From the NCBI RefSeq assembly GCF_000832305.1, contig NZ_CP010537.1, forward strand, positions 2,170,001-2,234,000: a stretch of DNA of 64,000 nucleotides. Reading direction: 5' to 3'. Every line of letters begins with the position of its first letter. The first letter of the stretch is position 1. The notes beneath the pieces were generated by a model. The model was not told the origin of the DNA and ran no database searches. It saw only the letters and a list, made by a program, of their open reading frames with translations. Of this stretch, positions 2,010-31,426 are shown in pieces. The DNA comes from Cupriavidus basilensis. Lineage in GTDB: Bacteria; Pseudomonadota; Gammaproteobacteria; Burkholderiales; Burkholderiaceae. A program made the translations under genes and the position numbers.

Positions 2010-2013
2010 TAAC

Positions 2014-4014
2014 ATGCCGTCCCGCGACCAGCAGACAGGCCGGGACGGCCTGTGCGCATCCGATGCCTCCCTGTCCTCCTCGCCTTTTGCCTCACTGACC
2101 CGCCGACAGTTCATTGCCGGCGCCGCCGCGCTCGGCGCGGCAGCCGCCAGCCGGAGTTTCGCCATGACCCAAACCAGCACGCCCGAGCTCATCCTCGTCA
2201 ACGGCAAGTTCGCCACGCTCGACCGCGCCAATCCGCAGGCCGAAGCCGTAGCCATCAGCGACGGCAAGTTCATCGCCGTCGGCACCCGGCACGAGATCAT
2301 GCAACTGGCCGGCGCCGCCACCAAGGTGGTCGACCTGCAAGGCCGCCGCGCCATTCCCGGGCTGATCGACAGCCACATGCACATCATTCGCGGCGGGCTG
2401 AACTACAACATGGAGCTGCGCTGGGATGGCGTGCGCTCGCTGGCCGATGCCATGCGCATGCTCAAGGACCAGGTGGCGCGCACGCCCGCGCCGCAGTGGG
2501 TACGCGTGGTCGGCGGCTTCACCGAGCATCAGTTCGCCGAAAAGCGCCTGCCGACCATCGAGGAGCTGAACGCGGCGGCGCCGGACACGCCGGTGTTCAT
2601 CCTGCACCTGTACGACCGCGCCATCCTCAACGGCGCCGCCCTGCGCGCCGTGGGCTATACCAAGGACACGCCGAACCCGCCGGGCGGCGAGATCGTGCAC
2701 GACAAGGCGGGAAATCCCACCGGCTTGCTGCTCGCCAAGCCAAACGCCACCATCCTCTACGCCACGCTGGCCAAGGGCCCCAAGCTGCCGCCCGAATACC
2801 AGAAGAACTCCACGCGCCATTTCATGCGCGAGGTGAACCGTCTTGGCGTGACCGGCGTCATCGACGCTGGCGGCGGCTACCAGAACTACCCGGAGGACTA
2901 CCACATCATCGAGGAGCTGCACAAGGACGGCCAGCTCACGGTGCGCCTGGCCTACAACCTGTTCACGCAAAAGCCCAAGGACGAGCTCAGCGATTTCAGC
3001 GGCTGGTCCAAGCAGATCAAGCCTGGCCAGGGTGACGACCTGTACCGCCACAACGGCGCCGGCGAGATGCTGGTCTACAGCGCCGCCGACTTCGAGGACT
3101 TCCGCGTCGAGCGGCCCGACATGCCACCGTCGATGGAAGGCGACCTGGAGCCGGTGATCCGCCTGCTGGCGGAGAACCGCTGGCCCTGGCGCCTGCACGC
3201 CACCTACAACGAGACCATCTCCCGCGCGCTGGACGTCTACGAGAAGGTAGCGAAGGATGTGCCCTTCGATGGCTTGCACTGGTTCTTCGACCACGCGGAG
3301 ACCATCACCGACCGCAACATCGACCGCATCGCGGCGCTGGGCGGCGGCATCGCCGTGCAACACCGCATGGCCTACCAGGGCGAGTATTTCGTCGAGCGCT
3401 ACGGCGCGCGCGCGGCCGAGGCCACGCCGCCGATCAAGCGCATGCTCGAGCGCGGCGTCAAGGTCGGTGCCGGCACCGATGCCACGCGCGTGGCCTCGTA
3501 CAACCCGTGGGTGTCGCTGTACTGGCTGACTACCGGCAAGACCGTGGGTGGGCTGTCGATGTATCCGCAAGCGAACCTGCTCGACCGCGAAACGGCGCTG
3601 CGGCTGTGGACCGAAGCCAATACCTGGTTCTCCTCCGAGGAGGGCAAGAAGGGCCAGATCCAGGCCGGCCAGCTGGCCGACCTGGCGGTGCTGTCCGCCG
3701 ACTACTTCAGCGTGCCCGGAGACGAGATCCAGGACATCACCTCGGTGATGACGGTGCTGGGTGGCAAGGTGGTGTATGGCGACGGCGACTTCGACAAGCT
3801 CGCACCGGCACTGCCGCCGGCGATGCCCGACTGGTCACCGGCGCGCCACGGCAGCCGTTACCAGGCACGCCCGCTCGCGGTGACGGCCTCCTGCTGCGCC
3901 ACGGCCTGCGGACTGCACGGCCATGGGCACGCGAAGGCATGGACCGCTGAGGTGCCGGCCTCGGACGAGAGTACCTTCTGGGGCGCGCTGGGCTGTTCGT
4001 GCTGGGCCTTCTGA
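2014..4014 (+). CDS. YtcJ-like metal-dependent amidohydrolase with Tat leader and Cys/His tail (copy A)
   Basis: The protein has 666 residues and belongs to the amidohydrolase superfamily (Amidohydro_3, YtcJ-like), which hydrolyses C-N bonds with a metal centre. The first metal motif is SHMH (His121, His123). Residues 29-50 form a twin-arginine leader (TRRQF plus an Ala-rich stretch), so this copy is probably exported. An in-frame ATG at 2164 (Met51) has GGAG 7 nt upstream and could give a cytosolic form. The last 45 or so residues are rich in Cys and His and end in GCSCWAF. DNA at 2212-3792 is almost identical to 29798-31378 on the other strand, where copy B lacks the Tat leader. DoxX follows after 16 bp. 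The substrate is unknown. Confidence 0.9.
   Translation: MPSRDQQTGRDGLCASDASLSSSPFASLTRRQFIAGAAALGAAAASRSFAMTQTSTPELILVNGKFATLDRANPQAEAVAISDGKFIAVGTRHEIMQLAGAATKVVDLQGRRAIPGLIDSHMHIIRGGLNYNMELRWDGVRSLADAMRMLKDQVARTPAPQWVRVVGGFTEHQFAEKRLPTIEELNAAAPDTPVFILHLYDRAILNGAALRAVGYTKDTPNPPGGEIVHDKAGNPTGLLLAKPNATILYATLAKGPKLPPEYQKNSTRHFMREVNRLGVTGVIDAGGGYQNYPEDYHIIEELHKDGQLTVRLAYNLFTQKPKDELSDFSGWSKQIKPGQGDDLYRHNGAGEMLVYSAADFEDFRVERPDMPPSMEGDLEPVIRLLAENRWPWRLHATYNETISRALDVYEKVAKDVPFDGLHWFFDHAETITDRNIDRIAALGGGIAVQHRMAYQGEYFVERYGARAAEATPPIKRMLERGVKVGAGTDATRVASYNPWVSLYWLTTGKTVGGLSMYPQANLLDRETALRLWTEANTWFSSEEGKKGQIQAGQLADLAVLSADYFSVPGDEIQDITSVMTVLGGKVVYGDGDFDKLAPALPPAMPDWSPARHGSRYQARPLAVTASCCATACGLHGHGHAKAWTAEVPASDESTFWGALGCSCWAF
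2212..3792 (+). repeat. 1.58-kb inverted repeat, arm 1 (amidohydrolase core)
   Basis: This stretch matches the reverse complement of 29798-31378 at equal length (1581 bp). The encoded proteins agree residue for residue across the segment, and the sampled DNA differs by roughly one base per hundred. Outside the segment the two amidohydrolase genes diverge sharply, and so do the neighbouring isochorismatase-like and XapX paralogues. Sharp borders suggest gene conversion or a recent exchange between two older cassettes. The arms are inverted and about 26 kb apart, so recombination would flip the intervening DNA. Confidence 0.9.
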
Positions 4015-4030
4015 GCCGGGGAGCATCGTC

Positions 4031-4471
4031 ATGAACCGTCCCGCTTCCGCCTTCGCGCCGGCCGCCGGCGCCGTGCGTCCGCCGGCATGGCTGCGCTGGC
4101 TTGCACTGCTGGCGCTGTGCGCCGCCTACCTGCAAGGCGGCCTGGTCAAGGTCATGAACTTCGCCGGCGCCATCGGCGAGATGCAGCACTTTGGCCTCGC
4201 GCCGGCGGCGCCGCTGGCAGCCGCGGTGATCGCGCTGGAGCTGGGCGCGTCGCTGATGATCCTGTGCGGCTTCTACCGCTGGCTCGGCGCACTGGCGCTG
4301 GCGGTCTTCACGCTGCTGGCGACCCTGCTGGCCAACCGCTTCTGGGCGGCGCCGCCAGCCGAGCAGTTCATGCTGGCCAACGCCTTCTTCGAGCATGTCG
4401 GCCTGGCCGGCGGCTTCGTGCTGGTGGCATGGGAAGACCTCGCCCGCCGCGCGGCCGGGAAAGCAGCTTGA
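4031..4471 (+). CDS. DoxX-family membrane protein
   Basis: The 146-residue protein has four predicted hydrophobic segments (about 18-37, 55-78, 83-103 and 115-137) in the DoxX pattern, with the family-like stretch GGLVKVMNF after the first helix. DoxX proteins are small inner-membrane proteins linked to thiosulfate:quinone or other thiol redox reactions, though many have no known role. The ATG at 4031 follows a GGGGAG-type ribosome site and lies 16 bp after the amidohydrolase stop. Cassette B has lost or never had this gene. The neighbouring Cys-rich amidohydrolase tail makes a redox partnership conceivable, but that is inference. Confidence 0.85.
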   Translation: MNRPASAFAPAAGAVRPPAWLRWLALLALCAAYLQGGLVKVMNFAGAIGEMQHFGLAPAAPLAAAVIALELGASLMILCGFYRWLGALALAVFTLLATLLANRFWAAPPAEQFMLANAFFEHVGLAGGFVLVAWEDLARRAAGKAA

Positions 4472-4539
4472 AGCTGGCCATGGCCCGCCCATGCCGCGAG
4501 ATCCGCAACCCACACTGAACTCAGAATATTGGAAATGCG

Positions 4540-4836
4540 ATGAAGCTCTATATCGTTTCGCTTGGCGCCGGCATCCTCGTCGGCATCATCTACGCCCTGC
4601 TGCAGGTCCGCTCGCCCGCTCCGCCCGTGGTCGCGTTGATCGGGCTGCTCGGCATGCTGATCGGCGAGCAGGTCGTGCCGCCGATCAAGCGCATGCTGGC
4701 AGGCGAGCCCGTCACCGCCGCCTGGTTCCACGCCGAGTGCGTACCCAAGATCACCGGCACACCGCCGCCGGCAACCTTGGTCGCGGCCCGCGACGGCATA
4801 CCACCAGCGCCGCGCGGCACCACTGATTCGCGCTGA
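4540..4836 (+). CDS. XapX-domain small membrane protein (cassette A)
   Basis: The 98-residue protein begins with the XapX (DUF1427) domain: two hydrophobic segments separated by LQVRSPAPP and followed by GEQVVPPIKR. A soluble C-terminal tail carries one Cys (HAECVPKI). XapX proteins have no assigned biochemical role. A paralogue of 95 residues lies at 29201-29488 in cassette B and keeps the same tail motif (RAECVPKI). It is the last gene of the + strand cassette, with a convergent toxin-antitoxin pair starting 31 bp later. Confidence 0.85.
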   Translation: MKLYIVSLGAGILVGIIYALLQVRSPAPPVVALIGLLGMLIGEQVVPPIKRMLAGEPVTAAWFHAECVPKITGTPPPATLVAARDGIPPAPRGTTDSR

Positions 4837-4867
4837 GCCCGCCTCACAAGCCAAGCCTTCCGGCGAT

Positions 4868-5383
4868 TCAAGGCTGTACCTGCGCTGCTCCCGCAGCCAT
4901 CCGCTGCAAGCGCAGGTCTTCCGCGCGCGCCTCGGCCAGTAGCTGATTCCAGTCGTCTGGAGGGTGGCCGCTTTCCAGCATCTTGCGGAATACGCGGTAG
5001 GCGTCGTCGCTGCTCTCGCAGGCGCGCTTGGTGTCTTCATCGTTGACCCAGGCAAATACGATTACCCTGCTTTGCGCGTGGTAGCGAAAGAACAGCCGGT
5101 ACTGTTGAAAGAACTTGGCCCGGAACCAATGTTTGTGATCGTCGCCGAGAGTGCCGCGCTGCCGGTATTCCGGCCGTGCCGGGTCCTGCGCGATCACCTC
5201 GAACGCCAGCCTGGTGATCGCCGCCAGCCGTTTGCTGGCGTTCTTCTTCACGTAGCCGGTTGGGTCTCTTTGCTTGAGCGCTTCGACTTGTCGGGTCAGC
5301 CCCTCAAGTTGAGCGAGAAACAGCGGATGGGCGAAAACAGTCCAACCGTTGATGATCAAAGGCGCAGGCTGACTCGCGCTCAT
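4868..5383 (-). CDS. yhaV: YhaV-family toxin (mRNA interferase)
   Basis: The 171-residue protein matches the YhaV toxin family of the RelE superfamily, which cleaves mRNA. Visible family features are the start INGWTVFAHPLF, the central WFRAKF-QQYRLFFRY region and the WVNDE segment. The start overlaps the stop of the upstream prlF gene by 4 bp (ATGA), the typical antitoxin-first order. Its activity should be neutralised by the PrlF partner. The gene looks intact and of full length for the family. Confidence 0.92.
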   Translation of the reverse strand: MSASQPAPLIINGWTVFAHPLFLAQLEGLTRQVEALKQRDPTGYVKKNASKRLAAITRLAFEVIAQDPARPEYRQRGTLGDDHKHWFRAKFFQQYRLFFRYHAQSRVIVFAWVNDEDTKRACESSDDAYRVFRKMLESGHPPDDWNQLLAEARAEDLRLQRMAAGAAQVQP

Positions 5384-5709
5384 TCATCGTCAGCCGAAAG
5401 GGCGGCATCAAGATCCACTTCGATGCCACCGACCAGCGACTGGATGCGCCGCACGAAACTGGCATCGACGGCCTGCAGGCGCTCTGGATGGCTGGCGATG
5501 TCGCGGACCAGGAAACTCAGGAAGTTGCCCAGCACCGGATCGTCCCCCTCGGGGGCCTCGGCGCGCGTCAGCACGACTTCGCCGCCGGGGCGGATCGTGT
5601 AGTGGATCTTGTCGCGCTTGCCCAGCCGCAGGGCGCGGCGCACGGTTTCCGGCACGGTGGTCTGATAGCGGTCGGTCAGCGTGGATTCGACTTCAAGGGT
5701 GGCAGCCAT
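5380..5709 (-). CDS. prlF: PrlF antitoxin (AbrB-type DNA-binding)
   Basis: The 109-residue protein is the PrlF (SohA) antitoxin of the PrlF-YhaV type II module. The N-terminal swapped-hairpin AbrB domain is visible in TLTDRYQTTVPETVRRAL, and the rest is the PrlF-specific toxin-binding part. PrlF and the PrlF-YhaV complex are known to repress their own promoter. A 22-bp inverted repeat at 5744-5765, 35 bp before the start, is a plausible operator. The gene is translationally coupled to yhaV. Confidence 0.92.
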   Translation of the reverse strand: MAATLEVESTLTDRYQTTVPETVRRALRLGKRDKIHYTIRPGGEVVLTRAEAPEGDDPVLGNFLSFLVRDIASHPERLQAVDASFVRRIQSLVGGIEVDLDAALSADDE

Positions 5710-5743
5710 GGGGCTCTCAGGTCAAAGGAGTGGATGCCCTGCA

Positions 5744-5765
5744 CGGTAATGCGATTGCCTTACCG
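5744..5765. promoter_or_regulatory. Inverted repeat upstream of prlF-yhaV, candidate autoregulatory operator
   Basis: CGGTAA and TTACCG form perfect 6-bp arms with a 10-bp spacer. The site lies 35 bp upstream of the prlF start, where an antitoxin operator is expected. Binding is not shown by sequence alone. Confidence 0.5.
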
Positions 5766-6161
5766 CGTCAATGCAAGTGCATTGCCTCCGACGTGTGTCA
5801 TCCTGCCCCCAAGCCCGGATGGAGACGTCCTACCAACCACATCTCGATGGCGTTTTCTTCACTTTTCTCCATGAGGGGCCACCAGAACGGCGGCCGAAAT
5901 GGGCCCACATTCCACAATCCACAAGCCTCGGCGCCTGGTCGGGACGGATGCGAGGCTGCCAGCACGCGGCGGCTGCAGACCATGTCAGCAGGTCCAGCGC
6001 GTGCCGGCGCAGGCGCGGATGGAGGCGGTCAGCGATGCAAACGAATGCAGGGTCAAGTTTTCCCCCGGGTGGTCGATAGAGAAGATCACGGCTTGGGTCT
6101 GTGACCGGCCAGGCGCACGCACGCGCATGCGGATCGCTTACGACCATAGGAAAAGACAAAC
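5766..6161. other. Intergenic stretch without recognised gene
   Basis: About 400 bases separate the prlF operator region from the CBS-domain gene. Only short open frames without family resemblance or ribosome sites occur. It presumably holds the promoter of the CBS gene, but I see no clear promoter motif. Confidence 0.5.
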
Positions 6162-6602
6162 ATGGAGCTAGTAGTGAGTATTGATAGCATCATGTCCAAA
6201 AAGCTCGTCACCGTCGTGTTCGACGACACGTTGGAAACGATCAAGAACATCTTCGACGAGGCGAAGTTCCATCACCTGCTCGTCGTCGAGGACGGGAAGC
6301 TGCATGGTGTTGTATCGGACCGCGATCTGCTGCGCGCGATGAGCCCGTTTATAGGCAGCACGGTAGAGTCGGCCAGGGACGTCAATACCCTCAAGAAGCG
6401 CGTGCACCAGATCATGACGCGCAAGCCGGTAACGCTGCGCCCGGAGGCCGGGATTGCCGATGCCATTGCACTATTTCTCGCCCACCAGGTCTCGTGCATT
6501 CCCGTCGTCGACGAGCAGTTTCGGCCGGTTGGCATCGTGAGTTGGCGGGACATCCTGCGATCGTTGGCGGCAAGTTCCACGCCGCCGGATAGCGCCGCAT
6601 AG
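6162..6602 (+). CDS. Tandem CBS-domain protein
   Basis: The 146-residue protein consists of two CBS motifs, about residues 10-65 and 82-137, with the typical ends GVVSDRDLLRAM and GIVSWRDILRSL. Paired CBS domains form a Bateman module that binds adenine nucleotides and acts as an energy or redox sensor. No catalytic domain is attached, so it may act on a partner protein. The ATG at 6162 was used; an in-frame ATG at 6192 would remove the first ten residues but keep both domains. The convergent neighbour is a broken HEAT-repeat gene. Confidence 0.88.
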   Translation: MELVVSIDSIMSKKLVTVVFDDTLETIKNIFDEAKFHHLLVVEDGKLHGVVSDRDLLRAMSPFIGSTVESARDVNTLKKRVHQIMTRKPVTLRPEAGIADAIALFLAHQVSCIPVVDEQFRPVGIVSWRDILRSLAASSTPPDSAA

Positions 6603-6665
6603 GAAGGGCATGGCATCCGAGATATCCGGGCGGGAAGTACTGTCCTCCTCCTTGCAGTACGGCTG

Positions 6666-8043
6666 CTACGCGTAATGCACCGTTCCGATGCCGACGCGAC
6701 GGGATCCGCCACCCTCGTCGGGCATCGCGCCGCTTTCGAGTGCCTCGATCGCCTCCTCCAGCGCTTGCCTCACATCCTCGCGCCGTTTTGGCAGCGCCGA
6801 TAGCAGATCGCGCAGTCCGGACACAACGCAGATCTCGGCCAGCGCCAGGACAGCCTGCTGCCGCACATGGGGATCGCTGTCGCCAAAGCTGCCCGTCAGC
6901 AGCGGCAGCACCTTGCCGGGCGTGAAGAAGCTCAGCGCCCAGACGATGCGGCGCCGGACATCCGGCGAAAGCTCACGCTTGAGCCGCGACGCCAATGGCG
7001 GAACCGCCTCATCGTCACCGATGGCCGCCAGCGCCAACGCCGCCTCGCCACGCACCGCATCGTCGTCATCCCCCAGCAGTCCAAGCAGCAGCGGCATGGT
7101 GCTTCGCGTCGATGCGGCTGATGGCCTCGATGATCTTGCACCAAGCCTCCTCGTCGCCGTCGCTCAGCGCACCGGCAAAAAACGGGACGGCCCGCGCATC
7201 GCGCAAGCTGGCGAGCGCGCCGCAGACGCTGCGCCTGACGTTCGGCTCGGCATCGCTCAGCGCACGGCAGAGGCTTTGCAGCGTGGCCTTGGTGTCGGGA
7301 TGCGCCGCCCACGGGAGGCTGCCGAGCGAGTCGATCAGATGTTGCGTGGCGCCCGCATGCCGCATCTCGCCCAGCGCATTGACCGCGTAATTTCGGACTT
7401 CTTCGTCCGGATCGCTGAAGATGCGGTCGGCGAGGGTGTCGATGGCTTGATGCACCTGCATCGAACCCAGGGCGATCACGGCCTGCAGCCGCACGCCAGC
7501 CACCTCGTCGTTTGGCGCAACCATGAGCGCCGGGATGGCCTCCGGCGACTGGCTCGCCAGGGCCGAAGCCGCGGCCGCCCGGATCGACGCATCGCGGTCG
7601 CCCGCCAACGCCCGATGCACGGCCTGCGCCGCTTGCGCATGCGTCGCCATGTCGTAGTGCCCGAGCGCATGGATCGCGCTGGCGCGGATGTACGGGTCTT
7701 CGTCCCGCGCCGCGGCCAGCAACGGCGCAACAAACGCATCGGCCGTCCCCGGATCGGTGAGGCTGACGTTCGCACCGCGCCGTTCGTCAGGGGGCTGCGC
7801 CCTCAAGAACGCGATCAGGTCTTCGATTTCGCCCGGCGCACGCCCCTCTTCGCCGGCCCGATCGTCAGCAGCGGCATCTCGATTGCCAGCCAGGGCCGCT
7901 TTCGCGCGCATCATCACGCATGTGCCGGCCTCCGGAGCTTTCCTCGTGTCGTTCTCCGCAACCGGCAACGCGCGCAGTCGCCGCCCGTTGAACAGCGCAT
8001 CGGACGCGCAGTCAATGCGCCGGATTTCCTTGATATCTATCAT
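6666..8043 (-). pseudogene. HEAT-repeat protein gene with frameshift
   Basis: Two adjacent frames on the minus strand together encode one HEAT/PBS-lyase-type repeat protein of about 455 residues. The first frame runs from the ATG at 8043 and carries repeats such as DPYIRASAIHALG, DEEVRNYAVNALG and EPNVRRSVCGALA. It leaves the family pattern after AISRIDA near 7105 and stops at 7066. The repeats resume in another frame at about 7097 (DDDAVRGEAALALAAIG, DPHVRQQAVLALAEI) and end at 6666. Removing one A from the GAAG near 7103-7106 would rejoin the frames (RIDASTMPLLLG). It is therefore a pseudogene or carries a one-base sequencing error. HEAT repeats mediate protein binding; the partner is unknown. 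Confidence 0.8.
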
Positions 8044-8134
8044 GATGTCTATCACGATCCTTGATCCGTGCGGCCACTTCCTGTGCCGTGCGTGGGAAGA
8101 ACCCAGAAGACATTCAGCGCCGCGGTTCTCCCCT

Positions 8135-8701
8135 TCAAGCCGCGCGCTGCAGCGGCAATTTGCGGCTGGCCTCGAACAGCGGCGCGCAACGATCCGCGGC
8201 CAGGCGGATGCGTTCGGCCAGCGCGGCGCTGCTGACCTGGTAATTGTGGAAATCCCCCGGGCTGCCATACACGCCGATGGGCAGCGTGAGCGCCTGCAGG
8301 AAGCCGAACAGCGGCCGCAACTGATGCTCCAGCACCAGCGCGTGGCGGTCGCTGCCGCCCGTCGCCCCCAGCAGCACCGGCTTGTCCACCAGCGCTTGCT
8401 GCCCCACCAGGTCGAAAAGGTGCTTGAAGTGGCCGGGATAAGAACCGCGATACACCGGCGCGGCCACCACCAGCAGGTCCGCGGACTCGATGGCGACCAG
8501 CTGGTTTTCAATCTCGGCCGGCAGCTCCGCGCGCGACAGCGCCGCGCCCAGCGGACGCGCGATGTCGCCGAGATTGACGATATGGCTTTGCAAATGCAGC
8601 CGGCTATCCAGCTCCGTGAGCAGTGCCTGCACGAGCGCGAGCGTGCGCGAGGGCTGCTGCGCGCTGCCGTTGACGGCGACCACTTTCAGCGGTGTAGCCA
8701 T
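8135..8701 (-). CDS. NADPH-dependent FMN reductase, MsuE-like
   Basis: The 188-residue flavodoxin-fold protein belongs to the NADPH-dependent FMN reductase family and resembles MsuE, the reductase that feeds FMNH2 to sulfonate monooxygenases. The FMN phosphate loop is near the N terminus (VVAVNGSAQQPSRT), and PVYRGSYPGHFKHLFDL is the typical flavin-binding segment. The start at 8701 has a strong AGGAGGT ribosome site 8 bp upstream. No monooxygenase is nearby, so the partner enzyme must be elsewhere or the enzyme serves general flavin reduction. Confidence 0.85.
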   Translation of the reverse strand: MATPLKVVAVNGSAQQPSRTLALVQALLTELDSRLHLQSHIVNLGDIARPLGAALSRAELPAEIENQLVAIESADLLVVAAPVYRGSYPGHFKHLFDLVGQQALVDKPVLLGATGGSDRHALVLEHQLRPLFGFLQALTLPIGVYGSPGDFHNYQVSSAALAERIRLAADRCAPLFEASRKLPLQRAA

Positions 8702-21982: not shown

Positions 21983-24900
21983 TCAGGCCTGAGGCCCGCC
22001 CTGCCGCTTCAGCGCCATCGCCAGCACACGCGCCACGTGCATGGCCTCGGTGTCGGCGCCGTCCAGGATCTGGTGGCGGCAGCTGGTGCCGTCGGCCACC
22101 ACGATGGCATTGGCGGCGCGCTTGCGCACCGCGGGCAGCAGCGCCAGCTCGGCCATGGCCTTGGACGCCTCGTAATGCTCGGCCTCGTAGCCAAAGCTGC
22201 CCGCCATGCCGCAGCAGGACGATTCCACCGGGGAGACCTTCAGGCCGGGGATCCAGCCCAGCACGGTCTGCACCGGGGTGAAGGCGTCGAATGCCTTCTG
22301 GTGGCAGTGGCCGTGCACCACGGCCTCGCTCGTCTGCAGCGCATCGAGATCGAGCGCAAGGCGGCCGGCTGCCTTCTCGCGCACCAGGAACTCCTCGAAC
22401 AGGAAGGCCTGCGCGGCCAGCTTCCTGGCGTCGTCGCCGTAGCCATAGCTCAGGAACTCGTCACGCAGGGACAGCAGGCACGAAGGCTCCAGGCCGACGA
22501 TGGGAATGTCGCGATCGACATAGGGCTTGACCGCATCCAGCAGGCGCCGCGCCTCCTCCCTGGCCTGGTCCACCAGCCCCGCCGCAAGAAAGGTGCGGCC
22601 ACAGCACAAGGGGCGCTCGCCTTCGCGGCGGTTGAAATGCACCGTGTAGCCCGCCGCCTCCAGCACCTGCTGCGCCGCCAGTGCGTTCTCCGGCTCCATG
22701 TAGTTGCTGAAGGTGTCGACGAAGAGCATGACTTCGCGGCCCTCCCCGCCCTGGCGCATTGCCTTGGCTTTCGACAGGAACGCGGCCTTGAAGCGCGGCA
22801 GCGAGCGTTGCGGCGCGAACCCCATGGCCCGCTTCACCACACCGGAGATGCCGGGGATGCCATCGGCCAGCGCCAGCAGTGCGGCAAGGCGGCTCGCCAC
22901 GCTCGCATAGCGCGGCATGAACGCCACCATGCGCTCGCGCAGGGTGATGCCGTGCCGCCGGGCCCAGGCATGGCGCGCTTCGATCTTGAACCTGGCCATG
23001 TCCACGCCGGTCGGGCAATCGCGCTTGCAGCCTTTGCAGGCGACGCACAGGTCGAGCGCTTCCTTGACTTCGGGGCTGGCAAGGCCGTCATCGCCCAGCT
23101 GCCCCGACACTGCCAGGCGCAGCGTATTGGCACGGCCGCGCGTGACGTGCTGCTCGTCCTTGGTCACGCGATAGCTCGGGCACATGGTGCCCGCATCGAA
23201 CTTGCGGCAGTGGCCGTTGTTGTTGCACATCTCCACCGCCGCAGCCAGGCCGCCGGCGCGGTCGGTGCCCGTGCCGGGCGCCGTTTCCTCGCCGGTGAGC
23301 GGGTTGCGGCTGACGTTCCATGCGGACCAGTCGAGCGCCGGCGTGAGCGGCAAGGCGGCATAGCCCGGCGCAAAGCGGAAGTTCTCGCGCGCGTCCATCC
23401 TGGGCGGGCGTACGATCTTGTCCGGGTTGAAGCGGTTGTCCGGATCGAACAGCGCCTTGATCTCGCCGAAGGCGGCGTTGATGCGCGGGCCATACTGCCA
23501 GGCCACCCATTCGCCCCGGCACAGGCCATCGCCGTGTTCTCCGGAGTACGCGCCCTTGTACTCGCGCACCAGCTCGGCGGCTTCCTCGGCGATCTCTCGC
23601 ATGCGCTCCGCGCCGTCGCGCCGCATGTCCAGGATTGGGCGCACATGCAGCGTGCCCACGCTGGCATGGGCATACCAGGTGCCTTCGGTCTCGTGCTTGT
23701 GGAACACGGCGGTAAGCCGGCGGGTGTACTCGGCCAGGTGCTCCAGCGGCACGGCGCAATCCTCGATAAAGGAAACCGGCTTGCCGTCGCCCTTCATGCT
23801 CATCATGATATTGAGCCCGGCCTTGCGCACGTCCCACAACGCCTTCTGCGACTTGGCGTCGGCCATCTTGACCACCGAGCCGGGCAACCCCAGGTCGCTC
23901 ATCAGCGCCGCCAGGTCGTCGAGCTGCGCCAGCAGCGCGCTGTGTTCCTCCCCCGCGAACTCGACCAGCAGGATGGCCTGCGGCTCGCCAGACAAGGCGC
24001 TCTCGATGACGGGGCGGAACGCCGGGTTCTCCATCGACAGGTCGATCATGGTGCGATCCACCAGTTCCACCGCAACCGGCTTGAGCCTGACGATATGCTG
24101 CGTCATGTCCATGGCCTGGTAGAACGTGGGGAAATTCACCACGCCCAGCACCTTGTGCCGCGGCAGCGCAGACAGCTTCAGCGTGACCTGGCGGCTATAA
24201 GCCAGCGTGCCTTCCGAGCCCACGAGGATATGCGAGAGATTGGCGTAGCCGTCGTCGGTATAGGCGCGCGGATTCTGGCATGCGAACAGGTCGATGTTGT
24301 AGCCGGCCACACGGCGCAGCACCTTGGGCATGCGCTCGGCAATCTCGTCGCGCTCGCGCGTGGCAATGCGTTGCAAGCCCTGCAGAATGCCCGCCACGCG
24401 CGCGTCGGAAACGGGTGCCTTGAGCGTGCCGAAATGGCATTGGCTGCCATCTGCCAGCACGGCATCGATGCCCAGCACGTTGTGCACCATGTTGCCGTAC
24501 TCGATGGAGCGCGAGCCGCAAGAGTTGTTGCCGGCCATGCCGCCGATGGTGCACTGCGCCCCCGTCGATACATCCACCGGGAACCACAGCCCGTGCGGCT
24601 TGAGCCAGGCGTTGAGGTGGTCCAGCACGATGCCGGGCTCAACCGTGACGGTGGCGGCCACGGGATCGAAATCCACCACGTTGTTCAGCCACTTGCTGTT
24701 GTCGATCACCAGCGCCTCGCCAACCGTCTGGCCGCACTGGCTGGTGCCGGCGCCGCGCGCCAGCACCGGGGCCTTCTCGTCGCGGGCGATCTCCAGCGCC
24801 AGCAACAGGTCCGCCTGGTCCCGCGGCACCACCACGCCGATCGGCGTGATCTGATAGATGGAGGCATCGGTGGCGTAGCGGCCCCGGGTGGCGCGGTCGA

Positions 24901-25027
24901 AGAACACGTCGCCGCGCAGTTCCTTGCGCAAACGGGCCGAGAGCGGCGACAGGGCCGGGCCGGCGCGGCCCGGCGACGGCACCAGATGGATCGGCTTGAC
25001 GAGCATCGGGGAGGAGGATGGGTTCAT
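21983..25027 (-). CDS. FAD-linked oxidase fused to Fe-S (GlpC-like) domain, D-2-hydroxyacid dehydrogenase (YdiJ-like)
   Basis: The 1014-residue protein joins a GlcD-type FAD-binding oxidase (about 40-560) to a 4Fe-4S/CCG-domain part (about 600-1000). The FAD segment RGAGTSQCGQTVG and GGMAGNNSCGSRSIEYG are clear. The Fe-S ligands appear as CNNNGHCRK...CPSY and CVACKGCKRDCPTG, and CCG-type motifs follow (LCCGRTF, SSCCGMAGSFG). Such enzymes (YdiJ, D-lactate dehydrogenase 2) oxidise D-2-hydroxy acids and pass electrons to the respiratory chain. It is the distal gene of a minus-strand set with an MFS permease and a class V aminotransferase, probably under the GntR regulator at 28024. Confidence 0.9.
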   Translation of the reverse strand: MNPSSSPMLVKPIHLVPSPGRAGPALSPLSARLRKELRGDVFFDRATRGRYATDASIYQITPIGVVVPRDQADLLLALEIARDEKAPVLARGAGTSQCGQTVGEALVIDNSKWLNNVVDFDPVAATVTVEPGIVLDHLNAWLKPHGLWFPVDVSTGAQCTIGGMAGNNSCGSRSIEYGNMVHNVLGIDAVLADGSQCHFGTLKAPVSDARVAGILQGLQRIATRERDEIAERMPKVLRRVAGYNIDLFACQNPRAYTDDGYANLSHILVGSEGTLAYSRQVTLKLSALPRHKVLGVVNFPTFYQAMDMTQHIVRLKPVAVELVDRTMIDLSMENPAFRPVIESALSGEPQAILLVEFAGEEHSALLAQLDDLAALMSDLGLPGSVVKMADAKSQKALWDVRKAGLNIMMSMKGDGKPVSFIEDCAVPLEHLAEYTRRLTAVFHKHETEGTWYAHASVGTLHVRPILDMRRDGAERMREIAEEAAELVREYKGAYSGEHGDGLCRGEWVAWQYGPRINAAFGEIKALFDPDNRFNPDKIVRPPRMDARENFRFAPGYAALPLTPALDWSAWNVSRNPLTGEETAPGTGTDRAGGLAAAVEMCNNNGHCRKFDAGTMCPSYRVTKDEQHVTRGRANTLRLAVSGQLGDDGLASPEVKEALDLCVACKGCKRDCPTGVDMARFKIEARHAWARRHGITLRERMVAFMPRYASVASRLAALLALADGIPGISGVVKRAMGFAPQRSLPRFKAAFLSKAKAMRQGGEGREVMLFVDTFSNYMEPENALAAQQVLEAAGYTVHFNRREGERPLCCGRTFLAAGLVDQAREEARRLLDAVKPYVDRDIPIVGLEPSCLLSLRDEFLSYGYGDDARKLAAQAFLFEEFLVREKAAGRLALDLDALQTSEAVVHGHCHQKAFDAFTPVQTVLGWIPGLKVSPVESSCCGMAGSFGYEAEHYEASKAMAELALLPAVRKRAANAIVVADGTSCRHQILDGADTEAMHVARVLAMALKRQGGPQA

Positions 25028-25102
25028 GGCTTTCTACCAGGGCTTGTGTGGCGCGGTGCCGTGCCGGCGCGCCTTGTCATGCGAGGATCAGTTCTGCGTG
25101 GC

Positions 25103-26371
25103 TCAGGCGCGCAACGGCTTCGAGGCATCCGCGGGCTCGGCTTCGAACTTGCTCTCTGGCTGCATGCGCAAGGCCAGGATCACGCCGACGCCCATCAGCA
25201 CCATGCTGCCGATAAAGGGCAGCTCCCAGCTGCCGAAGCGGTCGATCAGGTAGCCCGAGAGCACCGGCGAGATGATCGCGGCCAGCGCCGAGCCGGAATT
25301 CATCATGCCGCTCGCGGTGCCGGAATGCTCCGGCGCGATGTCCATGGGAATCGCCCACATCGGCCCGATCGTCATCTCGGCAAAGAAGAAGCCGGCGGCC
25401 AGGCAAGCCATCGAGACATAGAGGTTGTGCGTAAACAACAGGGGGAGCAGCGACAACATGGTCAGCAGCATGCAGACCGCCACCATCGCGCTGCGCGCGC
25501 GCTTCAGGCTGCCCGTACGGTCGTAGAGCTTGTCGGTGACGACGCCGCCCAGGGTATCGCCGATCACGCCGGCAAAGAACACGGCGGAGGCAAAGATGGC
25601 GGACTTCTTCAGGTCCAGGTCGTAGCTATGCAGAAAGTACTGCGGAATCCAGCTCAGGAACAACCACAGGGTCCAGCCGTAGCAGAAGTAGACGATGGTC
25701 ACGGGGGCCATGCGCTTGAACAGGCGGCGCCAGGGCACGTCGGCAGCCTTCTTCCTGGGGGCCGGCAGCGTCTCGAGTTCTGCCGGGGTCATGCGGGGAT
25801 GGTCCTTCGGATGCTCGGTGAACGTCACCGCCCACAGCGCCACCCAGACCAGGCTGATCGCGCCGCAGATGTAGAACGACTCGCGCCAGCCGTAGACCGC
25901 CATGATGGCGACAACCGCGGCCGGGGCCACGGCGTTGCCGACCCGGGCGCAGGCATGGGTGATCCCCTGCGCGAAGCCGCGCTTTTCCTTGGGCACCCAG
26001 CGTGCCATGGCGGCGGTGGCAGCCGGAAAGGTAGCGCCCTCGCCCAGGCCCAGCAGCAAGCGCGCGGCGAGCAGGGAAACCAGACCGCCGGCAAAGCCAG
26101 TGAGCAACGTGGCAGCAGCCCACAGCACGCCGCAGACCATCAGGGTGCGCTTGGCGCCGAACCGGTCGCTCACCCAGCCGCCGATGATCTGGAACACCAG
26201 GTAGGGATACGCAAAGGCCGAGAACACCAGGCCGATCTCGGTCTTGCTGAGGTTGAACTCCTGGCCAAAGCCGGCCGCGGCCGTGCTCACATTGACGCGG
26301 TCCAGGTAAGTGATGAAATACATGATGCATAGCATCCCCAGCACGACGCTGGTTGCACGCAGGCGCTTCAT
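25103..26371 (-). CDS. MFS transporter, anion:cation symporter (ACS) type
   Basis: The 422-residue protein has twelve predicted helices and the ACS-family start RVNVSTAAAGFGQEFNLSKTEIGLVFSAF and GGWVSDRFGAKR. This subfamily takes up hexuronates, galactonate, tartrate, phthalate and other organic anions. The ATG at 26371 follows a GGAGAC-type site. It lies between the oxidoreductase and the aminotransferase on the same strand, so its substrate is probably the hydroxy or amino acid that these enzymes process. Confidence 0.87.
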   Translation of the reverse strand: MKRLRATSVVLGMLCIMYFITYLDRVNVSTAAAGFGQEFNLSKTEIGLVFSAFAYPYLVFQIIGGWVSDRFGAKRTLMVCGVLWAAATLLTGFAGGLVSLLAARLLLGLGEGATFPAATAAMARWVPKEKRGFAQGITHACARVGNAVAPAAVVAIMAVYGWRESFYICGAISLVWVALWAVTFTEHPKDHPRMTPAELETLPAPRKKAADVPWRRLFKRMAPVTIVYFCYGWTLWLFLSWIPQYFLHSYDLDLKKSAIFASAVFFAGVIGDTLGGVVTDKLYDRTGSLKRARSAMVAVCMLLTMLSLLPLLFTHNLYVSMACLAAGFFFAEMTIGPMWAIPMDIAPEHSGTASGMMNSGSALAAIISPVLSGYLIDRFGSWELPFIGSMVLMGVGVILALRMQPESKFEAEPADASKPLRA

Positions 26372-26632
26372 GGTTTGTCTCCGTTGTGTTATTCCTGCCC
26401 GCCCGGCGGGACGCCGGGGCCAGGGCAAATTCATCGCGGCCGGCTCTATGGCCGGCTCCATGGCCAGTTCGCGCTACCGCCCACAGGCGGTGGCATGGCT
26501 GCCGAATGGCAAAAATGGGCGGCACCTGTCCCTGACCTCACCCCAAGGAGTGAAGCCACGCCTGCTTGCACTGGTTAACTTCTTGTTGCCTTGCGCGGGT
26601 TCAGGAAGGCCGCCCTGCCCTCCCGTGCTGGC

Positions 26633-27853
26633 TTATGCCGCGGCCTTCAGCACCGGGCTATCCGCATGCGATGCCAGGTACTCCATCGCCGCCACCACGC
26701 CGCTGGCCGCCACCGGCACGCCGGCGAGCTTCAGCCCCATCTCGCAGCCGGACAGCGTGGCCATCAACGTGAGGTCGTTGCAGTCGCCGAGATGCCCGAT
26801 GCGGAACATCTTGCCGCGGATCTTGCCCAGCGCCTGTCCCAACGACATGTCGAAGCGTTCATAGATGCGCTTGCGCACTTCGTCGGCGTCCACGCCGTCG
26901 GGCATCATCACGCCCGTCAGCACGGGGCTGTACATGGAGGCATCCGCGCACTGGATCTCCAGGCCCCAGGCCCGCACCGCGCGGCGGGTGGCTTCGGCCA
27001 GCCGCTGGTGCCGCGCGAAGACGTTGTCCAGGCCCTCCTCCAGGATCATGTCCAGTGCCTCGGACAGGCCATAGAGCAGATTGGTGTTCGGCGTGTACGG
27101 CCAGTAGCCGTTCTTGTTGGCTTCGATGATCTCGTCCCAGGCCCAGAACGCGCGCGGCAGCTTTGCCGCCTTGCTGGCCGCGATGGCCTTGGGCGACAGC
27201 GCATTGAAGCTGATCCCCGGCGGCAGCATCAGCCCCTTCTGCGAACCCGATACCGTCACGTCCACGCCCCACTCGTCATGGCGATAGTCCGCCGAGGCCA
27301 GGCCGGAGATGGTGTCCACCAGCAGCAGCGCCGGGTGGCCGGCCGCGTCGATGGCGCGGCGCACCGCAGCGACGTCGGAGGTCACGCCGGTCGAGGTCTC
27401 GTTGTGCACCACGCACACCGCCTTGATGGCGTGCGCGCTGTCGGCGCGCAGGCGGGCTTCGATCATGTCGGCCCGCACGCCATGGCGCCAGCCCTCGACG
27501 CCCGGCAGCCCGAGAAATTCCGGCTTCAACCCGAGCGCTTGCGCCATTTTTTTCCACAGCGTGGCGAAGTGACCCGTCTCGAACATCAGCACCGTGTCGC
27601 CGGGGCTCAGTGTGTTGGTCAGTGCAGCCTCCCAGGCGCCGGTGCCAGAGGCCGGATAGATGATGACCGGCTGCTCGGTCTTGAAGATCTTCTTGATGTC
27701 CGCCAGCACCTTGCGGCCCAGCGCGCCGAACTCCGGGCCACGGTGGTCGATGGTCGGGTAGCTCATGGCACGCAGGATCCGGTCGGGCACGGGGCTCGGG
27801 CCGGGGATCTGCAGGAAGTGGCGGCCGGCGGGGTGGAAGTCGAGTTTGATCAT
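26633..27853 (-). CDS. Class V aminotransferase (alanine/serine/aspartate-glyoxylate type)
   Basis: The 406-residue PLP enzyme belongs to the alanine-glyoxylate/serine-glyoxylate aminotransferase family. The opening GPSPVPDRILRAMSYPTIDHRGPEF, the VHNETSTGV segment and the Schiff-base Lys in SGSQKGLMLPPG are all visible. BhcA of the beta-hydroxyaspartate route belongs to the same family, but bhcBCD are not nearby. AGGAGGA precedes the start by 7 bp. A palindrome at 27877-27889 just upstream is a candidate operator. Combined with a hydroxy-acid dehydrogenase and a permease, amination of glyoxylate or another 2-oxo acid is likely. Confidence 0.88.
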   Translation of the reverse strand: MIKLDFHPAGRHFLQIPGPSPVPDRILRAMSYPTIDHRGPEFGALGRKVLADIKKIFKTEQPVIIYPASGTGAWEAALTNTLSPGDTVLMFETGHFATLWKKMAQALGLKPEFLGLPGVEGWRHGVRADMIEARLRADSAHAIKAVCVVHNETSTGVTSDVAAVRRAIDAAGHPALLLVDTISGLASADYRHDEWGVDVTVSGSQKGLMLPPGISFNALSPKAIAASKAAKLPRAFWAWDEIIEANKNGYWPYTPNTNLLYGLSEALDMILEEGLDNVFARHQRLAEATRRAVRAWGLEIQCADASMYSPVLTGVMMPDGVDADEVRKRIYERFDMSLGQALGKIRGKMFRIGHLGDCNDLTLMATLSGCEMGLKLAGVPVAASGVVAAMEYLASHADSPVLKAAA

Positions 27854-27876
27854 GGGTTGTTCCTCCTTTGTGAATT

Positions 27877-27889
27877 ATGCATTTTGCAT
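27877..27889. promoter_or_regulatory. Candidate GntR operator in front of the aminotransferase operon
   Basis: ATGCA-TTT-TGCAT is a perfect 13-bp inverted repeat, 24 bp upstream of the aminotransferase start. It lies in an AT-rich stretch and is overlapped by a second repeat, TGAAT/ATTCA (27871-27892). A looser TGCG-N5-CGCA repeat at 27995-28007 lies just before the divergent GntR gene. Confidence 0.45.
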
Positions 27890-28023
27890 TCAAAATACTT
27901 TAGCAGACGAAGCGCGCCACATCCAAGCGCTGTTTTGGCCTGAACACCGGGTGTTTACCCCGGTTCTGGGTGCCTGCCAGGAGATGCAGTAGAATGCGAA
28001 AAACGCAAAGATAAGGACTTTGA

Positions 28024-28749
28024 ATGCAGAATCCATCTGGCAACGACCTCACGCGCCCTGCCGCGGTCCTCCCCAAGGTTGAGCGCCAGCGGCTGCACGA
28101 CACCGTGGTCGACCACCTGCGCAAGTTCATCGTGGAAGGCGTGCTGTCCCCGGGCATGAAGCTCAACGAGCGTGAGCTATGTGAAACGCTGGGCATCTCC
28201 CGCACGCCGCTGCGCGAGGCGTTCAAGGTGCTGGCGGCGGAGGGCCTGATCGAGATCTCGCCCAACCGGGGCGCCAGCGTCTCGCGCATGACCGAGGCGG
28301 AAGTCTGGGAAACGTTCGAGCTGATGAGCGGCCTGGAAGCCTTCTCGGGCGAGCTGGCTTGCGAGCGCATCACGCCGGCCGAGCTCGCCGAGATCAAGGC
28401 GCTGCATTATTCGATGCTGGCCTGCCGCGTGCAGAACGACCTGCCGGGCTACTACAGCCGCAACCAGGAAATCCACGACCGCATCAACGAGGCGGCCCGC
28501 AACACCGCGCTGCGCCAGACCTACCAGGGCATCAACCGCCGCCTGAAGGCGCTGCGCTTTCGCTCCAACCACCAGACGGACAAGTGGGACCGCGCCGTGC
28601 ATGATCACGAAGACATGATCAAGGCACTGGAAGCGCGTGACGGCAAGCTGCTTGGCGCCATCCTCAAGCGCCACTTGCTGGAGAAGCGCGACGCCATCAT
28701 GCAGATCCATCCGGATCCGGTCGGCGACCCGCCTGCCCATAACGACTAA
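28024..28749 (+). CDS. GntR-family regulator (FadR/FCD subfamily)
   Basis: The 241-residue protein has an N-terminal winged helix with LREKFIVEG-type and ERELCETLGISRTPLREAFKVLAAEGLIEI motifs, and an all-helical FCD ligand domain with the metal-binding His positions (NQEIHDRI, HDHEDM). It is divergent from the aminotransferase-MFS-oxidoreductase set and probably controls it in response to a carboxylate ligand. Candidate sites lie at 27877-27889 and 27995-28007. Confidence 0.88.
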   Translation: MQNPSGNDLTRPAAVLPKVERQRLHDTVVDHLRKFIVEGVLSPGMKLNERELCETLGISRTPLREAFKVLAAEGLIEISPNRGASVSRMTEAEVWETFELMSGLEAFSGELACERITPAELAEIKALHYSMLACRVQNDLPGYYSRNQEIHDRINEAARNTALRQTYQGINRRLKALRFRSNHQTDKWDRAVHDHEDMIKALEARDGKLLGAILKRHLLEKRDAIMQIHPDPVGDPPAHND

Positions 28750-28835
28750 AGTCAGACGGTCTCCGATAGCCATGTGCTGGCACTGGACCAAAATGGAGTC
28801 AGCCGCTATCTGCAAGACCCCCACGGGAGATTGTC

Positions 28836-29054
28836 ATGACAGCCCATAACATCCACGTTTTGCCACACGGTTCCGGATGGGACGTGATCCAGGAGGGCGC
28901 GCGGTATGCCAACTCGCATCACGCGTCCCAGGAAGACGCCGTGGAGGCCGGCACGCGCGACGCCCAGCGCGAGCAGGTCGAGTTATTGATTCACGGACAG
29001 GACGGACAGATCCATACCCGCAGCAGCTTCGGGCATGAGCCTCGCTCGATATAG
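28836..29054 (+). CDS. DUF2188-domain small protein
   Basis: The 72-residue protein matches DUF2188: NIHVLPHGSGWDVIQEGA, then a repeat-like QEDAVEAGTRDAQREQVELLIHGQDGQI. Such proteins are small, soluble and of unknown role, often annotated as stress-related. A GGGAG site lies 9 bp upstream. It stands alone between the GntR gene and cassette B. Confidence 0.75.
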   Translation: MTAHNIHVLPHGSGWDVIQEGARYANSHHASQEDAVEAGTRDAQREQVELLIHGQDGQIHTRSSFGHEPRSI

Positions 29055-29200
29055 CATGAAGATGGCCAAGCCGATAAGCGAGACGGATGAGAGAAACCGA
29101 TAAGCGAAACCGAACGGCACGACATGGCATCCAGCAGCCGGAAGGGCAATCCGGGACATAAGCCCAGGTCCTGACGCCATGTCCCCGCGTGGGCTGGCGT

Positions 29201-29488
29201 CTACGTGCCGTTCTTGCCCCCCGTGCTGGCCACCGTTGCCGCCGCCCCCTGTGCCGGCGCGGGCGGCGCTCCACTGATCTTGGGCACGCACTCGGCGCGG
29301 AACCACGCAACGGTGATCGGCTCGCCGGCCATCAAGCGCTTCGCGGTAGGCACCACCTGCTCGCCAACCAGCATCCCAAGCAGCCCGATCAAGGCAATGG
29401 CGGGCGGGGCCGGCGAGCGGACCTGCAACAGCGCATAGATGATGCCAACCAGAATCCCCGCGCCGAACGAAACAAGAAACAGCTTCAT
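29201..29488 (-). CDS. XapX-domain small membrane protein (cassette B)
   Basis: The 95-residue paralogue of the protein at 4540-4836 has the same XapX domain (FGAGILVGIIYALLQVRSPAPP) and the tail RAECVPKISG. It differs mainly after that tail. It is the last gene of inverted cassette B, 66 bp after the amidohydrolase. DoxX, present in cassette A, is missing here. Confidence 0.85.
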   Translation of the reverse strand: MKLFLVSFGAGILVGIIYALLQVRSPAPPAIALIGLLGMLVGEQVVPTAKRLMAGEPITVAWFRAECVPKISGAPPAPAQGAAATVASTGGKNGT

Positions 29489-29554
29489 GGTCCTTCTCCC
29501 TGGAAGTAGCCGCCGCTCAGGATGGTGGTGCGGGCCAAAGCGTGCTCCCTGCCA

Positions 29555-31426
29555 TCAGAATGCCCAGCAGGAGCAACCCAACGCGCCCCAGAACCCGCGG
29601 TGGTCCGACACCGGCGCGCTGGACTGCCACGCGCCCGCGTGCGCATGGCCGTGCACGCCGCAGGCGCTCGCGCAGCCGCAGCCAGCCGTCACGGCCAGCG
29701 CCTGCGCGCCGGGCGCTCGCCGTGGCTGGTAGCCGCCAAAAGCGCGCACCGGCGCCCAGTCCGGCATGGCGGCCGGCAGCGGCGGCGCCAGCGTGCCGAA
29801 GTCGCCATCGCCATACACCACCTTGCCACCCAGCACCGTCATCACCGAGGTGATGTCCTGGATCTCGTCTCCGGGCACGCTGAAGTAGTCGGCGGACAGC
29901 ACCGCCAGGTCGGCCAGCTGGCCGGCCTGGATCTGGCCCTTCTTGCCTTCCTCGGAGGAGAACCAGGTATTGGCTTCGGTCCACAGCCGCAGCGCCGTTT
30001 CGCGGTCGAGCAGGTTCGCTTGCGGATACATCGACAGCCCACCCACGGTCTTGCCGGTAGTCAGCCAGTACAGCGACACCCACGGGTTGTACGAGGCCAC
30101 GCGCGTGGCATCGGTGCCGGCGCCGACCTTGACGCCGCGCTCGAGCATGCGCTTGATCGGCGGCGTGGCCTCGGCCGCGCGCGCGCCGTAGCGCTCGACG
30201 AAATACTCGCCCTGGTAGGCCATGCGGTGTTGCACGGCGATGCCGCCGCCCAGCGCCGCGATGCGGTCGATGTTGCGGTCGGTGATGGTCTCGGCGTGGT
30301 CGAAGAACCAGTGCAGGCCATCGAAGGGCACATCCTTCGCTACCTTCTCGTAGACGTCCAGCGCGCGGGAGATGGTCTCGTTGTAGGTGGCGTGCAGGCG
30401 CCAGGGCCAGCGGTTCTCCGCCAGCAGGCGGATCACCGGCTCCAGGTCGCCTTCCATCGACGGTGGCATGTCGGGCCGCTCGACGCGGAAGTCTTCGAAG
30501 TCGGCGGCGCTGTAGACCAGCATCTCGCCGGCGCCGTTGTGGCGGTACAGGTCGTCGCCCTGGCCAGGCTTGATCTGCTTGGACCAGCCGCTGAAATCGC
30601 TGAGCTCGTCCTTGGGCTTTTGCGTGAACAGGTTGTAGGCCAGGCGCACCGTGAGCTGGCCGTCCTTGTGCAGCTCCTCGATGATGTGGTAGTCCTCCGG
30701 GTAGTTCTGGTAGCCGCCGCCAGCGTCGATGACGCCGGTCACGCCAAGACGGTTCACCTCGCGCATGAAATGGCGCGTGGAGTTCTTCTGGTATTCGGGC
30801 GGCAGCTTGGGGCCCTTGGCCAGCGTGGCGTAGAGGATGGTGGCGTTTGGCTTAGCGAGCAGCAAGCCGGTGGGATTTCCCGCCTTGTCGTGCACGATCT
30901 CGCCGCCCGGCGGGTTCGGCGTGTCCTTGGTATAGCCCACGGCACGCAGGGCGGCGCCGTTGAGGATGGCGCGGTCGTACAGGTGCAGGATGAACACCGG
31001 CGTGTCCGGCGCCGCCGCGTTCAGCTCCTCGATGGTCGGCAGGCGCTTTTCGGCGAACTGATGCTCGGTGAAGCCGCCGACCACGCGTACCCACTGCGGC
31101 GCGGGCGTGCGCGCCACCTGGTCCTTGAGCATGCGCATGGCATCGGCCAGCGAGCGCACGCCATCCCAGCGCAGCTCCATGTTGTAGTTCAGCCCGCCGC
31201 GAATGATGTGCATGTGGCTGTCGATCAGCCCGGGAATGGCGCGGCGGCCTTGCAGGTCGACCACCTTGGTGGCGGCGCCGGCCAGTTGCATGATCTCGTG
31301 CCGGGTGCCGACGGCGATGAACTTGCCGTCGCTGATGGCTACGGCTTCGGCCTGCGGGTTGGCGCGGTCGAGCGTGGCAAAGCGCCCGTTCATCAGAATC
31401 AGTTCGGGCTTGGCGGCGGCATCCAT
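29555..31426 (-). CDS. YtcJ-like metal-dependent amidohydrolase without Tat leader (copy B)
   Basis: The 623-residue protein starts with MDAAAKPELILMNG and lacks the twin-arginine leader of copy A, so it should be cytosolic. Its core (about residues 17-543) is identical to copy A at the protein level. The C-terminal tail has diverged but keeps the spaced Cys and His residues, AxACGxHGHxHA and the last ten residues GALGCSCWAF. Metal-site His residues lie in DSHMH. It lies 88 bp after the isochorismatase-like gene and before XapX. The substrate is unknown. Confidence 0.9.
   Translation of the reverse strand: MDAAAKPELILMNGRFATLDRANPQAEAVAISDGKFIAVGTRHEIMQLAGAATKVVDLQGRRAIPGLIDSHMHIIRGGLNYNMELRWDGVRSLADAMRMLKDQVARTPAPQWVRVVGGFTEHQFAEKRLPTIEELNAAAPDTPVFILHLYDRAILNGAALRAVGYTKDTPNPPGGEIVHDKAGNPTGLLLAKPNATILYATLAKGPKLPPEYQKNSTRHFMREVNRLGVTGVIDAGGGYQNYPEDYHIIEELHKDGQLTVRLAYNLFTQKPKDELSDFSGWSKQIKPGQGDDLYRHNGAGEMLVYSAADFEDFRVERPDMPPSMEGDLEPVIRLLAENRWPWRLHATYNETISRALDVYEKVAKDVPFDGLHWFFDHAETITDRNIDRIAALGGGIAVQHRMAYQGEYFVERYGARAAEATPPIKRMLERGVKVGAGTDATRVASYNPWVSLYWLTTGKTVGGLSMYPQANLLDRETALRLWTEANTWFSSEEGKKGQIQAGQLADLAVLSADYFSVPGDEIQDITSVMTVLGGKVVYGDGDFGTLAPPLPAAMPDWAPVRAFGGYQPRRAPGAQALAVTAGCGCASACGVHGHAHAGAWQSSAPVSDHRGFWGALGCSCWAF
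29798..31378 (-). repeat. 1.58-kb inverted repeat, arm 2 (amidohydrolase core)
   Basis: This is the partner of 2212-3792 in opposite orientation, with equal length and only scattered single-base differences in the parts compared. The borders fall inside the coding sequence, just after the N terminus and just before the Cys/His tail. Confidence 0.9.

Follow-up and report, generated by a model that had tools for sequence, protein, structure and literature searches.

Two amidohydrolase genes that lie 26 kb apart and in opposite orientations on the secondary chromosome of Cupriavidus basilensis 4G11 share a catalytic core that is almost identical in DNA sequence, set within cassettes, A and B, that have otherwise diverged. 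Very probably the core of the gene in cassette B was overwritten, in one direction only, by the core of its counterpart in cassette A, through gene conversion in the 4G11 lineage, at some time following its split from a close sister, genome G062. The cassettes lie in the stretch of 64,000 bases analyzed here—'the window'—which spans positions 2,170,001–2,234,000 of a chromosome of 3,898,767 bases, one of two contigs in a genome of 8,421,483 bases. Coordinates below are those of the window unless a contig is named. An earlier note on this DNA had proposed recent gene conversion; this proposal is now strongly supported, and the direction of transfer, A to B, and its relative age can be added to it.

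The shared core and its edges

The two cores comprise 1,581 bases each and differ at 10 of these (99.4% identity), and their translations are the same at all 527 of 527 residues; the equal length and identical protein described in the earlier note are thus borne out. Nine of the differences occupy third codon positions and one a first position, and all 10 are synonymous. The cores align in register, with no indels. Identity extends for one base more, to 3793 in A and 29797 in B, and the tract as a whole—2212–3793 (+ strand) in the donor arm, A, and 29797–31378 (− strand) in the recipient arm, B—has 10 differences in 1,582 bases. In A it covers the Amidohydro_3 domain, at about 2323–3777. The arms are nearly identical in sequence, as had been claimed, but they are not whole genes; they are the cores of longer open reading frames (ORFs), 1945–4014 and 29555–31594.

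Base-by-base alignment of the arms, the check that the earlier note had proposed, reveals a sharp fall in identity at both ends rather than uniform divergence. To the left, 28 differences are packed into positions 2146–2211; to the right, 13 fall within 3794–3842, and many more occur further out. The neighboring paralogues are diverged, as the earlier note had said: 84.7% identity for the isochorismatase-like genes (646 bases) and 80.9% for the XapX genes (215 bases), with the remainder of the cassettes, where alignable by BLAST, 75–85% alike. In a permutation test on polymorphic sites among 46 aligned genes the A–B segment is significant (P ≤ 0.001). One further gene, L134 (G028:C2), one of two copies in that genome, has a disrupted frame and was excluded from trees and tests; the shift, at about residue 331 (query length 633 residues), may be real or a sequencing error.

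Near identity of this kind would also be expected had a copy of A's gene recently been inserted into cassette B. That the identity is confined to the core, in register and free of indels, argues against such a duplication, and it is contradicted by the leader and tail of B, which are of a different, B type, and by the remains of a cassette B at the same syntenic place in G062 (see below). We consider it very improbable. Near-identical repeats are prone, too, to collapse or cross-polishing during assembly. The 4G11 assembly combines PacBio reads (8-kb average inserts, about 150× coverage) with Illumina reads (PMC4432324), and inserts of this size should span 1.6-kb arms with unique flanks; nor do 10 differences, all synonymous and divided 5:5 between the arms, form a pattern of errors. 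An assembly or consensus-polishing artefact is scarcely credible.

Direction and timing

Two trees and a set of site counts identify the recipient. In the core tree (46 genes) A and B are sisters (support 100/99), joined next by the A gene of G062 and then by G023:C9, and forcing B together with the B-type gene G023:C1 is rejected (approximately unbiased test, p-AU 0.001). In a tree of the flanks—the last 30 bases of the leader plus the tail, a short alignment of 270 columns, with a star on only 14 of the 43 internal branches—B pairs with G023:C1, instead (100/94), and it is the forced union of A and B that is rejected (p-AU 0.0003). Individual sites behave likewise. At the 250 core sites where A and G023:C1 differ, B agrees with A at 246, with G023:C1 at three and with neither at one. 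At 17 such sites in the 60-base N-terminal flank the corresponding counts are 2, 13 and 2, and at 67 sites in the tail they are 20, 37 and 10. Core and flanks thus disagree on the kin of B, and the transfer ran from an A-type gene into B. The donor core is unremarkable: A differs from the A gene of G062 by 3.9% (96.1% identity), against a background of 4.6% computed from 31,117 aligned bases that start past the 5-kb mark of the window, with the B relic included. As judged from sequence, B is shown to be a mosaic, with an A-type core and a B-type leader and tail, the core of A itself being unchanged.

G062 dates the event. Synteny was sought with four stretches of the window, in 40 Cupriavidus genomes each, and G062, which surfaced in a later search of the genus, was followed; it is 95% identical to 4G11 across the stretch searched, and its region is collinear with the window apart from insertions and deletions. 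The core of amidohydrolase A is complete there and is identical at 1520 of 1581 bases to A and at 1520 of 1581 to B. Cassette B of G062 (L168, at about G062:C2 1544991–1546044) is a relic: the XapX end is retained, the amidohydrolase is largely gone, the isochorismatase gene is partly gone, and the remaining frame contains an in-frame stop. What survives of the leader matches that of B at 71 of 75 bases (94.7%). The start of the core does not; it matches B at 97 of 121 positions in a gapped alignment, or 77.7% ungapped; the relic and A differ at 19 sites within the first 97 core bases, and B has the base of A at 18 of them. A leader that resembles B's, followed by a core start that does not, dates the overwrite to after the split from G062, on the 4G11 side. 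A and B differ at 10 positions and A and the A gene of G062 at 61; given equal rates, this would put the conversion at roughly 16% of the 4G11/G062 divergence. With the A gene of G062 as reference, the 10 changes since then fall five on A and five on B.

Several observations weigh against this account. The unconverted B core is known in synteny only from about 121 bases of G062, and the G023:C1 contig lacks synteny to the window, its kinship to B resting on the short flank tree. The 5:5 split uses the A gene of G062 alone, and at three of the sites (2232, 2646 and 3642) the opposite base is present in one or more of the remaining outgroup genes (G021, G023, L037). Divergence before the conversion was probably about 16% (A versus G023:C1, 84.2% identity), which is high for homologous pairing. 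And one strain of the species was compared, so an A-type gene in another cell might have been the donor.

Replacement of the B core by A-type DNA from another strain, rather than from the resident A, deserves separate consideration. The 10 differences between A and B could then be strain-level variation in an outside donor, and the tail of A (3801–4100) shows that sequence lacking a close full-length counterpart in the set compared did enter the cassette. A resident donor is present 26 kb away, however, and the 5:5 split requires no outsider, although it is compatible with one. Such inter-cell recombination strikes us as unlikely, and conversion by the resident A remains the reading we prefer.

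Mechanism and the question of inversion

How this conversion might have proceeded can be sketched. Inverted homologous copies 26 kb apart would pair within one cell during RecA-type recombinational repair; strand exchange would travel along the conserved core and halt near either end of the catalytic domain, where the two genes cease to be similar; and the intermediate would then be resolved without crossover.

The earlier note saw in the arms a substrate for inversion of the 26 kb between them, and in principle they could serve as one. No such inversion is fixed between G062 and 4G11: in G062 the genes just inside B adjoin the outer flank of B, arranged and oriented as they are in 4G11. Of the junctions only one is fully informative in this respect, since the DNA outside A is not conserved in G062. 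In the G023 and G021 stretches only cassette genes match the window over at least 100 bases, and hence neither provides a test of inversion.

Selection since conversion

Between 24 and 29% of single changes are expected to be synonymous under neutrality. The chance that all 10 of 10 would be so is then 0.7–4.6e-6, and that all five of five would be, 0.8–2.1 in 1000. Both copies have thus been constrained at the protein level since the conversion, as has the orthologue: the differences between A and the A gene of G062 number 57 in synonymous codons and four in non-synonymous codons.

Could selection by itself have held the cores identical in DNA? The wholly synonymous character of the 10 changes might be taken that way, but the same core differs from a third copy in this genome, C, by 12.8% and from the two copies in G023 by 5.8% and 15.8%, and of the differences between A and G023:C9, 82 lie in synonymous codons and 10 in non-synonymous ones. 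This explanation has next to no chance of being right.

Leaders, tails and the outcome of conversion

The conversion has left two genes with one and the same 527-residue core but with different tails and different leaders; the leader of A is Tat (twin-arginine translocation)-like, and no such signal was found in that of B. Within the 50 residues upstream of the core, 41 of 47 genes encode an RRxF motif of the Tat type, and both A and C belong to this majority; the motif is absent from B, from its B-type relative G023:C1 and from four others. A and G023:C1 share 461 of the 527 core residues, which gives a guide to the difference in protein that the conversion erased. If the difference in leaders is real, conversion could place one enzyme core into two compartments.

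The tail, of about 75–80 residues beyond the Amidohydro_3 domain (3793–4014 in A and 29555–29796 in B; also in L037–L116), is conserved and rich in Cys and His, with a pattern like CxCxxxCxVHxHxH ... FWGxxGCxCW. In the Cupriavidus set of 47 genes a strict form of it fits 44, A being among the three misses. In 80 named relatives from beta- and alphaproteobacteria the tail ends in CWAF or CWAI in 30, and in CWAV in nearly all of the other 50. It looks like a putative metal site outside any Pfam domain.

It is tempting to suppose that conversion rescued a failing B gene and re-targeted its enzyme, which would now combine the A core with another tail and no Tat-like leader. The in-frame stop in the G062 relic sits within the region later covered by the tract, and so damage of this sort, if ancestral and shared, would have been erased by the A core. 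The 4G11 gene is intact where G062 has its large deletions, making the deletions G062's own, and only point damage could have been shared. Rescue of this kind is quite improbable. In more general terms, conversion in the cassette family may homogenize catalytic cores and yet allow the modules for address and tail to diverge.

Other exchanges in the cassette family

The earlier note held that conversion was limited to one gene. For the A–B pair this is right, and even there it affected only the catalytic core; for the genome as a whole it is not, for there are further exchanges: a tract common to the isochorismatase genes of cassettes A and C, and the replaced tail of A. Cassette C lies about 262 kb from A and contains the third full-length amidohydrolase of this genome (C2:2433274, 87% identity); a fourth match in the genome is of only 33 bases.

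The isochorismatase tract spans gene bases 271–623 (554–906 in the window, + strand), with two differences in 353 bases; C's gene is at G000:C2:2432437. Over gene bases 285–627 A and C are 98.8% identical, and the next closest of the 47 genes compared (cut, shorter or interrupted ones were dropped) reaches 94.8% to A and 93.6% to C. The permutation test finds a segment at bases 242–618, with four mismatches (P = 0.0002). The outer parts of the C gene are up to 98.2% and 96.7% identical to C-type genes of other species, and the pattern points to a transfer from A to C. The isochorismatase gene of B (31515–32201, − strand; PF00857, 4.6e-27) was not converted by that of A, to which it is 82.8% identical over 687 bases.

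The tail of the A amidohydrolase and the beginning of the next gene (3801–4100, + strand) are a divergent version when compared with the A cassette of G062: only 67–80% of ungapped bases match per 60-base window, against mostly >90% in neighboring windows, and identity is 77% over 241 aligned bases. The tail in G062 resembles that in G023, which makes the 4G11 tail the one that changed. Among the best 25 matches the longest are about 79% identical over 230 bases and 77–78% over 221–245, and partial ones reach at most 87% over 108; no donor was assigned. The replacement starts almost at the end of the A–B tract. Cassette A also has little similarity to G062 before about 140 and at 4461–4520.

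Elsewhere the evidence is uneven. The permutation test was applied to 11 within-genome pairs. A–B, B–C and the pairs in G007 and G029 gave P ≤ 0.001 and A–C gave 0.035; the others gave 0.173 (G024), 0.293 (G023), 0.131 (G032) and 0.057–0.716 (G002), with no significant signal of conversion in the amidohydrolase pairs of G002, G023 and G032. A conserved block at core bases 150–675 inflates the test for distant pairs, among them B–C and A–C, and for this reason the G007 pair was compared with the other 44 genes, instead: its members are 98.5% identical within the block, where the other genes reach no more than 93.1%, and 72–87% identical outside it, so that at least one further Cupriavidus genome has a comparable tract. 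The two G024 copies (L132 and L133, on contigs C2 and C3) are 98.6% identical across 4,081 bases, starting near the amidohydrolase leader, and diverged on the upstream side; duplication and conversion would each account for this, and the case is ambiguous. The G029 pair (93.6%, P ≤ 0.001) is likewise graded ambiguous. Together these observations are a sign that the cassette family evolves as a recombining mosaic. Phylogenies of multi-copy cassettes would themselves then be mosaics, and the catalytic core alone an unsafe guide to orthology.

DNA matches to the amidohydrolase at E ≤ 0.001, some of them short, occur in 37 of 60 relatives, a sample to which G062 did not belong. Eight of the genomes searched, 4G11 included, have at least two full-length copies. 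Beyond Cupriavidus the sole nearly full-length match in the 60 relatives is in G042 (74%). In PLSDB 133 records match, none of them at >90% identity.

Gene content of the cassettes and their surroundings

The description of A and B as duplicate cassettes holds for their paralogous genes but not for their gene content, which is unequal. Cassette A (284–4836, + strand) comprises five genes: isochorismatase-like, YcaC-like hydrolase (284–970; PF00857, 1.2e-27), alpha/beta-hydrolase (1011–2009; PF00561, 1.5e-34), amidohydrolase (ORF 1945–4014; PF07969, 1.4e-130), with the Tat-like leader TRRQFIAG and the Cys/His-rich tail, a DoxX-family membrane protein reading frame (4031–4471; PF07681, 6.7e-15) and XapX/DUF1427 (4540–4836; PF07235, 6.1e-38; TIGR03510). 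Cassette B (29201–32201, − strand) lacks the alpha/beta-hydrolase and DoxX genes and has only XapX/DUF1427 (29201–29488; PF07235, 9.2e-37), the amidohydrolase (29555–31426; PF07969, 9.7e-131), for which the ATG at 31426 is the likely start, and the isochorismatase-like gene. The top NCBIfam match of the A isochorismatase-like protein is YcaC, at 129 bits under a cut-off of 310, and the B paralogue retrieves Escherichia coli YcaC (1yac).

A YhaV/PrlF toxin–antitoxin pair, recognized by Pfam, lies just inside arm A (4868–5709), and immediately past it G062 has other DNA, about 16 kb long. Of 30 further frames between 5.4 and 46.2 kb, some overlapping, 25 match ordinary Pfam gene families and five match none. 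The families include PrlF antitoxin, CBS, HEAT repeats, FMN reductase, ABC ATPase, UPF0014, a two-component system and an ArnT-like protein, as well as peptidase, porin, FAD oxidase, MFS, aminotransferase, GntR and LysR regulators, Mrp antiporter subunits and an OPT transporter. A mobile element that carries the arms was considered and rejected, there being no transposase or integrase among the Pfam matches of these frames. ARAGORN found no tRNA.

Comparison with known systems

Among the titles and abstract openings listed for Cupriavidus and for gene conversion between paralogues none describes this case, which is no proof of its absence from print, and none was found that joins XapX with amidohydrolase and isochorismatase. 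As proteins, the two copies score as Amidohydro_3 metal-dependent hydrolases. Both match the full PF07969 profile (1–472 of 472) at 437 and 438 bits, far above the gathering cut-off of 29.7; the domain occupies residues 127–611 of ORF A, outside which lie the leader and the Cys/His-rich C-terminal tail, an extra that the profile does not have. No NCBIfam model reaches its own cut-off on either.

Gene conversion is a known process, and the A–B pair is a well-supported, clean new case of it. It resembles recurrent concerted evolution, in which paralogues within a genome are closer to one another than to their orthologues and synteny excludes fresh duplication (PMC6053082). Table 1 of that study includes the Burkholderiales genes eftA and eftB, and no amidohydrolase appears in its Tables 1 and 2. 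The study admitted a gene only where five or more species displayed the pattern; in the cassette family the pattern is clear in 4G11 (A–B) and G007 and ambiguous in G024 and G029, short of that number.

For a bacterial metabolic gene the A–B conversion is unusually well resolved: the sequences reveal donor and recipient, where the tract begins and ends, which way it was copied, how old it is in relative terms and the selection that followed, and they do so because a sister, G062, preserves a fossil of the unconverted recipient. The tuf copies of Salmonella, another converting pair, are far more alike than A and B were. The resemblance lies in the one-way transfer between two chromosomal copies, modeled for tuf as a walk that averages 500 nt each way (PMC5485169). 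The difference lies in the copies themselves, which in A and B were probably about 16% diverged, and in the tract, which covers the catalytic domain and leaves leader and tail different.

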